Below are positions 20,890-36,414 of a stretch of 64,000 nucleotides of DNA, one piece after another. Location: assembly GCA_947642445.1 (NCBI GenBank), contig CANRSF010000003.1:1-64000 (forward strand), read 5' to 3'. This DNA comes from an uncultured Collinsella sp. Lineage in GTDB: Bacteria > Actinomycetota > Coriobacteriia > Coriobacteriales > Coriobacteriaceae. The notes under the pieces were generated by a model. The model had not been told where the DNA came from and searched no databases. It was given only the letters and a program-made list of their open reading frames with translations. A program made the position numbers and the translations under genes. The first letter of the stretch is position 1, and every line of letters begins with the position of its first letter.

Positions 20890-21573
20890 ATGGCCGAGAA
20901 AACGATTGATATTGCTTCGCCGATTCTGTCGCGCAACGAGCGCCTGGCAGATCAGCTGCGTCATCGATTTGAGCAGACGAACACCTACGTGATCAATGTG
21001 CTGTCGAGCCCCGGCTCGGGTAAGACCACCACGATTCTGGGCACCAACGAGCGCCTGCGTGACAAAGCCGGCCTGCGCTGTGCCGTCATCGAGGGCGATA
21101 TCGCCTCGGATGTCGACGCCGTCACCATGAAGGAAGCCGGCATGCCCGCCATCCAGATCAACACGGGCGGTCTGTGCCACCTCGAGGGTAACATGATTAT
21201 GGAGGCTGTCGATGCGTTCGACCAAGCCGTCGGTCTGGAGAACATCGACGTCATCTTTATCGAAAACGTGGGCAACCTGGTCTGCCCGGTCGACTTTGAC
21301 CTGGGCGAGAACCTGTCCATCATGATTCTCTCGGTGCCCGAGGGCGACGACAAGCCCGTAAAGTACCCGGGCATCTTCCAACACGCCGGCGCGCAGCTGC
21401 TCAACAAGGTCGACGTAGCCCCGGCTTTCGATTTTGACATGGATAGGTATACTAAGACACTCGATGACCTCAATCCGCAGGCGCCGCGGTTTGCCGTGAG
21501 CGCGCGCAAGGGCGAGGGCATGGATGCCTGGTGCGATTGGCTCATCGGGCAGATCGAGCAAGCAAGGGCGTAA
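20890..21573 (+). CDS. hypB: Hydrogenase nickel incorporation GTPase HypB
   Basis: A 227-residue GTPase of the SIMIBI class that drives nickel transfer. The P-loop SSPGSGKT is at 39-46. The G-domain metal site C96-H97 (GGLCHLEG) and C132 (NVGNLVCP) is conserved. The N-terminus lacks both the CxxCGC high-affinity site and the histidine stretch of some HypB proteins, so nickel storage is not expected. The ATG follows AAGGAG; 55 bases after hypA. Confidence 0.95.
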   Translation: MAEKTIDIASPILSRNERLADQLRHRFEQTNTYVINVLSSPGSGKTTTILGTNERLRDKAGLRCAVIEGDIASDVDAVTMKEAGMPAIQINTGGLCHLEGNMIMEAVDAFDQAVGLENIDVIFIENVGNLVCPVDFDLGENLSIMILSVPEGDDKPVKYPGIFQHAGAQLLNKVDVAPAFDFDMDRYTKTLDDLNPQAPRFAVSARKGEGMDAWCDWLIGQIEQARA

Positions 21574-33836: not shown

Positions 33837-33854
33837 ACGTAAGGAGTCGCTTTG

Positions 33855-34808
33855 ATGGACAAGGCCGCATCCGCCGGTCATTCGGACCGTTGCCGCATCG
33901 TCGTCGATACCTGCTGCGACTTTAGCCCCGAGGTCGCTGCGAACCTCGATGTCGATATCTTGGGCTTCCCCTTTATCATCGATGGCGAGGAGCGCACGGA
34001 CGATATCTGGTCGAGCATGAGCCCTAAGGAGTTCTACGACCGCATGCGCGCCGGTGCCCGCGTGTCCACCTCGGCTGTGTCGCTCGGTCGCTATATCGAG
34101 TTCTTTACCGAGTGCGCCAAAGAGGGCACGCCCACGGTCTACCTGTGCTTTACCTCGGCGCTGTCGTCGAGCTACAACTCCGCGTGCCAGGCGGCAGATG
34201 CCGTGCGCGCCGAGTATCCCGATTTTGAGCTGTATGTGGTCGACAACGCTCTGCCCTGTGCGACCGGCGAGCTCTTGGCGCTCGAGGCCGTGCGCCAGCG
34301 TTCGGCGGGGCTGACCGCCAAGCAGCTGGTCGATTGGGCAAACGAGGCAAAGACCTACGTCCACGGCTACTTTACGCTCGAGAGCTTCGATGCGCTGGCT
34401 GCCGGCGGCCGCATTCCGCCCGCGGCGGCACAGCTCACGGCAAAGCTCGACGTCAAACCCGAGCTGTCTTACGACCTGGCCGGCTCGCTGTCGCTGATCG
34501 GCGTCAACCGCGGTCGCAAGAAGGCACTCAAGTCCATCCTCAAGTCGTTCCGCGAGAACTATGTGCCCGATCGCACCATGCCCATCGCCATTATGACTGC
34601 CGATGCCGAGAAGGATGGTGACTGGCTCGAGGCCGCCGTTCGCAAGGAGGAGGGCTGCGCCGACGTCACGATCATCCGCAGCTCCGTGGGCCCCACCATT
34701 GGCTCGCACGTGGGCCCCGGCATGGTGGCACTTGCGTTTTGGGGCAAGAACCGCGCCGAGAAAGCCTCGCTTTCCGACCGCATCGCGCGCCGTGTGCGCG
34801 GTGAGTAG
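33855..34808 (+). CDS. DegV-family fatty-acid-binding protein (FakB-like)
   Basis: A 317-residue EDD-fold protein. IVVDTCCDFSPE at the start, the serine/threonine-rich lipid site in ARVSTSAVS, and the C-terminal GPTIGSHVGPGMVALAFWG are DegV signatures. Homologues (FakB) present a bound fatty acid to the kinase FakA so it can enter phospholipids; fakA is not in this window. ATG 33855 is placed 8 bases after AAGGAG; the TTG one codon before is less likely. Confidence 0.92.
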   Translation: MDKAASAGHSDRCRIVVDTCCDFSPEVAANLDVDILGFPFIIDGEERTDDIWSSMSPKEFYDRMRAGARVSTSAVSLGRYIEFFTECAKEGTPTVYLCFTSALSSSYNSACQAADAVRAEYPDFELYVVDNALPCATGELLALEAVRQRSAGLTAKQLVDWANEAKTYVHGYFTLESFDALAAGGRIPPAAAQLTAKLDVKPELSYDLAGSLSLIGVNRGRKKALKSILKSFRENYVPDRTMPIAIMTADAEKDGDWLEAAVRKEEGCADVTIIRSSVGPTIGSHVGPGMVALAFWGKNRAEKASLSDRIARRVRGE

Positions 34809-34900: not shown

Positions 34901-35980
34901 ATGGCAAACAAGCTCTCTGTCGCATTTATCGGCACCGGAATCATGGGTGCCCCCATCGCCGGCCACATCCTGGATGCTGGCTATCCTGTCACGGTCAACA
35001 ACCGCACCAAGTCCAAGGCCGCCGCGCTTATCGAGCGCGGTGCCGCCTGGGCCGATATGCCGGCAGATGCCGTGGCTAACGCCGATGTCGTCTTTACCAT
35101 GGTGGGCTATCCCTCCGAGGTTGAGGAGCTCTACCTGGCGGGCGACGGCCTGCTCGCGTGCACCAAGCCGGGCGCGGTCTTGATCGACCTCACCACGAGC
35201 TCGCCCGAGCTCGCCCGTGACATTGCCGAGGCCGCCCAGGTTTCTGGTCGCATGGCGTTTGACTGCCCCGTCACCGGCGGCGAGTCTGGTGCTATCGCCG
35301 GCACGCTTACGGCTATCGTGGGCGCCACCGAGAACGACATCGCGCCGGTCCGCGACATCCTTGCCACCTTCGCGGCCAACATCTGCTGCTTCGACGGCGC
35401 CGGCAAGGGCCAGGCTGCCAAGCTCGCCAACCAGGTGTCGCTGGGCGCCTGCATGGTCGGCATGGCAGACGCCATGGCATTTGCCGAGCTGAGCGGCCTT
35501 GACCTGGAGAAGACCCGCCAGATGATTCTGGGCGGCACCGGCAAGTCCGGCGCCATGGAGAGCCTGGCCCCCAAGGCGCTCGACGGCGACTACAAGCCCG
35601 GCTTTATGGTCGAGCATTTCATTAAGGACCTGCGCTTGGCGCTCGCCTATGCCGACGACCGCGAGCTTGCGCTGCCCGGCGCCGACGTGGCCTTTACGCT
35701 CTACGACATGCTCGACGCCATCGGTGGTGCCAAGCTGGGCACCCAGGCCATCACGGTCCTCTATAAGGAGGAGGCCGACGCCATCGCCGCCGGTCTGGAC
35801 TGGTCGAAGTATCGTCCCGAGGAACACGGTGCTCACGAGGAAGGCTGCGGTTGCGGCGAGCATGGTGACGACCACGAGTGCGGTTGCGGACACCACCACG
35901 GCGAGGACCACGAGTGCTGCGGCGGCCATGCCCATGACGACGGTCACGAGTGCTGCTGCGGCCACCATCACGGGGAGTAG
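34901..35980 (+). CDS. Beta-hydroxyacid dehydrogenase (3-hydroxyisobutyrate/tartronate-semialdehyde type) with His/Cys-rich tail
   Basis: A 359-residue NAD(P) enzyme. Rossmann motif FIGTGIMGAPIAGHIL near residue 6, substrate-binding DCPVTGGESGA and the catalytic lysine in GKGQAAKLANQ fit the 3-HIBADH/GarR family, whose usual length is about 290-300. The last ~53 residues form an extra tail with 14 histidines and 9 cysteines (units such as CGCGHHHGE and CCCGHHHGE), expected to bind several Zn, Ni or Cu ions. The tail is in frame, ends at a normal stop, and the next gene's ribosome site overlaps that stop. The substrate is unknown. Confidence 0.88.
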   Translation: MANKLSVAFIGTGIMGAPIAGHILDAGYPVTVNNRTKSKAAALIERGAAWADMPADAVANADVVFTMVGYPSEVEELYLAGDGLLACTKPGAVLIDLTTSSPELARDIAEAAQVSGRMAFDCPVTGGESGAIAGTLTAIVGATENDIAPVRDILATFAANICCFDGAGKGQAAKLANQVSLGACMVGMADAMAFAELSGLDLEKTRQMILGGTGKSGAMESLAPKALDGDYKPGFMVEHFIKDLRLALAYADDRELALPGADVAFTLYDMLDAIGGAKLGTQAITVLYKEEADAIAAGLDWSKYRPEEHGAHEEGCGCGEHGDDHECGCGHHHGEDHECCGGHAHDDGHECCCGHHHGE

Positions 35981-35985
35981 CGCCC

Positions 35986-36414
35986 ATGAGCTGGACGTTC
36001 GTGGTGCTTGCGCTGGTGCTCTTTCTCTTTGCGATATACATCGGCTTTCTGTGCGGCCAGTGGGCGTGCGAAAAGCGCGTCATCACCAAGCGCGACTACT
36101 GGATCGCCAACTTTGCAGGAGCGGCGGCAGTCGTCCTGCTGACCTGGGTGTTCTCGCTGTTCCCGCTGGTGCAGTTTGCGCCGATCGGCTGGCTCGGTGG
36201 CTTTATCGCCGGCCTTAAGATGAGCTTTGGCGAGTCCGTCGGTCCGTGGCGCAAGCACGACGAGGTCTTTAACGTCAACAAGGCTCATCGAGCCGCCGCC
36301 GACGCGGGCGATGCCGAGGAACGCCGCCGTGCACGTCGCAATGGCGCGGCCGACCGACAGCTCATCTCGGTCACCGATGACAGCAAGGGTGCTGGCAAGC
36401 ACGCCAAGAAATAA
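35986..36414 (+). CDS. Small membrane protein of unknown function
   Basis: A 142-residue protein with two to three hydrophobic segments (residues ~3-25, ~37-58 and ~65-80) and a basic, charged cytoplasmic tail (ERRRARRNG). No family recognised. Start ATG 35986 has GGGGAG upstream, overlapping the stop of the preceding gene, so it is translated with the dehydrogenase. Confidence 0.7.
   Translation: MSWTFVVLALVLFLFAIYIGFLCGQWACEKRVITKRDYWIANFAGAAAVVLLTWVFSLFPLVQFAPIGWLGGFIAGLKMSFGESVGPWRKHDEVFNVNKAHRAAADAGDAEERRRARRNGAADRQLISVTDDSKGAGKHAKK

Follow-up and report, generated by a model that had tools for sequence, protein, structure and literature searches.

A putative metal-binding His/Cys tail on a beta-hydroxyacid dehydrogenase of Coriobacteriaceae and Atopobiaceae

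Why does a dehydrogenase for whose catalysis no metal is expected end in a long run of metal-ligand residues? Tails of this kind are usually carried by SlyD and HypB, and the human gut bacterium Collinsella, which like Olsenella and Atopobium is a common member of the human microbiota, has one on a beta-hydroxyacid dehydrogenase. The gene lies at 34901..35980 (+ strand) of the window, that is, the whole stretch of 64,000 nucleotides analyzed here, which comes from the Collinsella aerofaciens clade (orthologues 97-99% identical). It is present in a single copy in the genome and encodes a protein of 359 aa, divided into a catalytic body (34901..35818, + strand) and a His/Cys-rich tail of 53 aa (codons 307-359, 35819..35977, + strand) that ends at a TAG stop codon (35978-35980, + strand).

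The tail and the enzyme that carries it

The tail consists of 14 His, 9 Cys, 15 Asp/Glu, 13 Gly and 2 other residues, exactly the His and Cys counts that a first-pass annotation of this DNA had given for the last 53 residues. With 23 His+Cys it has no equal in the window, where the next densest 53-aa stretch in all six frames holds 13. Its DNA is a degenerate tandem array at 35870..35977 (+ strand; period 36 bp, 3.0 copies by Tandem Repeats Finder) with the consensus GACCACGAGTGCTGCTGCGGCCACCACCACGGCGAG (DHECCCGHHHGE), so that the protein carries three degenerate copies of a unit of about 12 residues resembling DHEC-C/G-C/G-GHHHGE. A pattern search for the exact motif C-x-C-G-H-x-H finds three matches genome-wide, two within the tail and the third at C7:12786. 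AlphaFold2 places most of the body at a pLDDT above 90 and residues 311-359 below 50, a model in which a tail predicted to be disordered extends from a well-folded enzyme, and no PDB sequence matched the tail when it was used as a direct query.

The body belongs to the beta-hydroxyacid dehydrogenase superfamily by domain architecture, fold and motifs. It is made up of a Rossmann domain (NAD_binding_2, PF03446, residues 7-162, 155.1 bits), a helical C-terminal domain (NAD_binding_11, PF14833, residues 168-285, 96.3 bits), both above their cut-offs, and a conserved GLDWS segment (residues 298-302). Searches by sequence and by structure both rank L-serine 3-dehydrogenases of Pyrobaculum as the best relatives, and the nearest solved relative is of this type; the body matches the P. 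calidifontis enzyme 5xvh with an E value of 1.7e-28 and a TM-score of 0.87 by target. With this enzyme (PDB 5xvh, 3w6u; ~39% identity) and other beta-hydroxyacid dehydrogenases it shares the body fold and the GxGxxG, DxPVxGG and catalytic-lysine motifs, and Lys174 (codon 35420..35422, + strand) occupies the place of the conserved catalytic lysine, corresponding in the alignment to Lys170 of the Pyrobaculum enzyme, the residue mutated in 3w6z. Among 36 aligned orthologues, both tailed and tail-less, G11, G13, G16, D121, P123, G126, G127, K174, K242 and D243 are invariant, and these residues make up the GxGxxG dinucleotide motif, the DxPVxGG substrate motif, the catalytic Lys and the KD motif. 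The listed PDB relatives have about 280-320 residues, and their alignment covers the body alone.

The more specific label of a 3-hydroxyisobutyrate-type dehydrogenase, used in the first-pass annotation, is not established, because the protein scores far below the NCBIfam equivalog cut-offs both for 3-hydroxyisobutyrate dehydrogenase (TIGR01692, 174.2 against 291.6) and for tartronate semialdehyde reductase (TIGR01505, 196.9 against 340.75), and because the solved structure nearest to it belongs to an L-serine 3-dehydrogenase. The accompanying statement that the host family needs no metal agrees with what is established for the family. The dehydrogenase itself is not a SlyD, having no match to the FKBP_C prolyl isomerase domain (PF00254).

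The surroundings of the gene give no hint of metal handling. A DegV-family protein is encoded upstream (33852..34808, + strand) and a small membrane protein of 142 aa starts 5 bp past the dehydrogenase stop (35986..36414, + strand); no metal-handling gene is recognizable in the neighborhood, no conserved upstream regulator box is seen by eye beyond clade-level similarity, and promoter and terminator scans at the locus are near chance.

Distribution of the tail and selection on its ligand residues

Mapping the orthologues across the order, we found a match (E <1e-40) in all Coriobacteriaceae genomes and most Atopobiaceae genomes searched, and no Eggerthellaceae-type genome (group f2) among the matches, with the family names of the genome groups inferred from named loci. 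Nearly all loci with flanking sequence are syntenic, with HPF and DegV genes upstream and a HEAT-repeat gene downstream. Outside the order, the eight nearest relatives in a phylum-wide sample lack a tail and end near residue 285-300.

The C-terminus of the syntenic orthologue is readable in 131 genomes of Coriobacteriaceae and Atopobiaceae. Of these, 104 have a His+Cys tail (42/43 Coriobacteriaceae and 62/88 Atopobiaceae), so the tail is not peculiar to one strain, and the refuting case of a tail unique to this strain, named in the first-pass annotation, fails. The other 27 comprise 9 with a His-only tail, 1 with a Cys-only tail and 17 without a tail. The 104 tailed orthologues have 93 distinct tails, which run for 30-89 residues after the conserved GLDW motif, have medians of 13 His and 8 Cys and a median His+Cys fraction of about 40%, and contain two or more HEC motifs in 59 of the 93. 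A maximum-likelihood tree built from the body shows at least 11 changes of the His+Cys tail state (present or not); the simplest reading is that the ancestor of both families was tailed and that losses followed repeatedly, with the change counts themselves leaving the direction unfixed.

Several loci depart from the common pattern. In Atopobium deltae (L080/L183) the tail keeps nine Cys in SCDC-like repeats with Asp, Ser and Thr, and His is nearly gone. In L156 (genome G093) a GAG stands where the sister locus L149 has the stop TAG, which joins the dehydrogenase, the tail and the downstream membrane protein into one frame of 489 residues, possibly by sequencing error. Some Atopobiaceae loci (L056, L149, L150, L162-L164 and L204) have an extra gene of ~260 aa (IAVLIDYENLALGTG...) between the dehydrogenase/membrane protein and the HEAT-repeat gene, which none of the inspected Collinsella loci showed and whose product presumably resembles NYN-domain proteins.

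Selection holds the His and Cys residues of the tail. In 20 coding sequences of the C. aerofaciens clade, pN/pS at tail His/Cys codons is 0.006 with synonymous change near saturation (pS 0.56), compared with 0.127 at the other tail codons, 0.051 over the whole tail and 0.043 over the body; the only variable His/Cys positions are two His, each changed in one strain. Frameshift or chance coding as the origin of the tail is rejected by this purifying selection, by conservation in orthologues and by the unmatched His/Cys density, and because the tail shares its reading frame with a dehydrogenase whose catalytic residues are intact and is kept in orthologues, an assembly artefact is excluded along with a frameshift.

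A SlyD-like tail on a different carrier

The tail resembles that of SlyD in kind, as the first-pass annotation had suggested: it is terminal, predicted to be disordered, about 50 aa long and rich in His and Cys. The tail of Escherichia coli SlyD (b3349) has 51 aa with 15 H, 6 C and 16 G, near in length and composition to the 53 aa with 14 H, 9 C and 13 G of Collinsella, and both are terminal segments of His and Cys spaced by Gly, Asp and Glu, with disorder predicted for that of Collinsella. They sit on different proteins, an FKBP prolyl isomerase and a Rossmann-fold dehydrogenase. The alignment of the two tails scores 110 against a shuffle mean of 86 (sd 12), a score reached by 40/1000 composition-matched shuffles (4%), so that convergence and homology of the tails are indistinguishable by this comparison. 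E. coli SlyD is reported to bind up to 7 Ni(II), and Helicobacter pylori SlyD to bind Ni(II) or Zn(II) (PMC7055735).

The source genome's own SlyD (L254) and HypB have no metal tail. Among 70 SlyDs, a His/Cys tail occurs on four (L311, L317, L321 and L322), all in one Atopobiaceae genus (g96), and the dehydrogenases of these four genomes have no tail or a His run only. A SlyD tail occurs in 0/47 genomes with the His/Cys tail on the dehydrogenase versus 4/21 without it (Fisher 0.007, kinship ignored), and since all four cases lie in g96, they possibly go back to a single event. In two further g96 genomes neither protein carries a His/Cys tail. This pattern fits a portable module that is not part of dehydrogenase catalysis. 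HypB as an alternative carrier is rejected, with no N- or C-terminal metal tail on any of the 30 HypBs inspected.

Other bacteria offer precedents with their own differences. The closest in kind is the His/Cys-rich C-terminal extension of H. pylori HspA (GroES), a lineage-specific extension on a housekeeping protein that functions in nickel sequestration and hydrogenase maturation (PMC4671568, PMC5116745). The HspA host, however, is a chaperonin linked to hydrogenase, whereas the dehydrogenase tail occurs in Atopobiaceae in which no NiFe hydrogenase was found (62 genomes). The His-rich tail of Klebsiella UreE is terminal, metal loading and dispensable for the core job of its protein, but UreE is a dedicated nickel chaperone of urease, and its quoted tail has His and no Cys, unlike that of Collinsella (PMC7055735). 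In the open-access literature, which our search covered, we found no mention of a tail like this in Coriobacteria or on any beta-hydroxyacid dehydrogenase.

Buffer, switch or nickel donor

Taken together, the conserved composition of the tail, the purifying selection on its His and Cys, the predicted disorder, the likeness to the SlyD tail, the lack of tails on the genome's own SlyD and HypB and the presence of an equivalent tail on SlyD in four genomes whose dehydrogenase has no His/Cys tail lead us to propose that the tail is probably a SlyD-like metal buffer of broad specificity, attached to a housekeeping enzyme. The tail is almost certainly of the metal-binding type, in support of the first-pass annotation. 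It would bind metal in the cytosol and would serve in buffering or storage, not in delivery to one client enzyme. Its carrier is a housekeeping dehydrogenase with metal-independent catalysis, which may be abundant and may form oligomers, each of them displaying several tails. Zinc, nickel, cobalt and copper are all possible metals. The at least 17 genomes that live without any tail on the dehydrogenase count against a buffering role, as do the lack of a recognizable metal-handling gene or shared upstream box at the locus and the confinement of the tailed SlyDs to a single genus, and the frequent loss of the tail with catalytic residues kept argues against its being essential for catalysis.

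The tail could instead be a metal-responsive switch, through which metal alters the oligomerization or activity of the dehydrogenase and couples redox metabolism to metal status. Such regulation has a parallel in the reversible inhibition of E. coli SlyD isomerase activity by Ni(II) (PMC7055735), and it would account for the attachment of the tail to the same enzyme throughout two families, though any protein could carry it. However, the sequence and length of the tail (30-89 aa) vary widely, the tree has at least 11 changes of tail state with the catalytic residues of the tail-less orthologues intact, and four genomes have an equivalent tail on SlyD in place of the dehydrogenase; we therefore consider a switch unlikely.

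A nickel store that makes up for the tails lacking on SlyD and HypB and passes nickel to HypB for [NiFe]-hydrogenase maturation would fit the tail-less state of both proteins here; for the HypB of the window (20890-21573), inspection confirmed the remark in the first-pass annotation that it has no such tail. It also agrees with the presence of HypB in 38/41 tailed Coriobacteriaceae scored, several of which have matches to the NiFe-hydrogenase large subunit. Against it, 40/104 tailed genomes lack HypB, including the single-contig genomes G025 and G086; the large subunit was found in 0/62 Atopobiaceae genomes, yet the tail is present on 62/88 orthologues from that family; and independent pairs on the tree show no covariation of tail and HypB. 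We reject a nickel/hydrogenase link as the conserved role of the tail on these grounds, leaving nickel, one of the two stored metals suggested in the first-pass annotation, and a link to HypB or hydrogenase unsupported, and regard nickel donation to HypB as quite improbable.

The genomes hold some further observations on metal genes. In the window HypB comes after tatC, and HypB is apparently an orphan in many Atopobiaceae that gave no match to the NiFe-hydrogenase large subunit (HypB loci L345-L374). A link to the Co/Ni transporter gene cbiM was also tried and rejected: CbiM is present in 18/26 Atopobiaceae without the His/Cys tail versus 10/62 with it (Fisher 2.5e-6), with no association in independent tree pairs. 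A CbiM match is missing in genome G000 though found in other sampled genomes of the C. aerofaciens clade, and since the G000 assembly is 96.6% complete, this may be a gap.

If the tail were a structural Zn site, a few ligands would stabilize an oligomer or a small fold of the zinc-knuckle type and the remainder would be filler. The regular HEC...GHxH spacing of many tails and the recurrence of HEC would suit such a site, but the tail is predicted to be disordered and the orthologues share no invariant ligand set, with His-only tails (e.g., HHHHHHHH) and one Cys-only tail among them, which makes it very unlikely. That the tail is a neutral, functionless expansion of a low-complexity C-terminal repeat is scarcely credible: it is a tandem repeat at the DNA level whose copy number varies between species and whose state has changed repeatedly, but its His/Cys codons have a pN/pS of 0.006 with saturated synonymous change, and about 40% His+Cys is kept across 93 distinct tails.

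The buffer that we favor also admits a bolder form, which we hold to be doubtful, in which two host-associated families of Actinomycetota would rely on the dehydrogenase as their main metal buffer in the cytosol, a part played elsewhere by SlyD, HspA or Hpn, with a portable tail that moved to SlyD in one genus and a metal load that may feed back on redox activity. Because these are natural tails of metal-binding type on a dehydrogenase, some of them plain octahistidines, the proteins should bind metal-affinity resin. How Collinsella, Olsenella and Atopobium keep their metals in balance seems little studied, with searches of the open-access literature returning nothing. If the dehydrogenase tail is indeed a metal buffer, metal-buffering capacity would be a portable trait, tied neither to nickel enzymes nor to a particular carrier.
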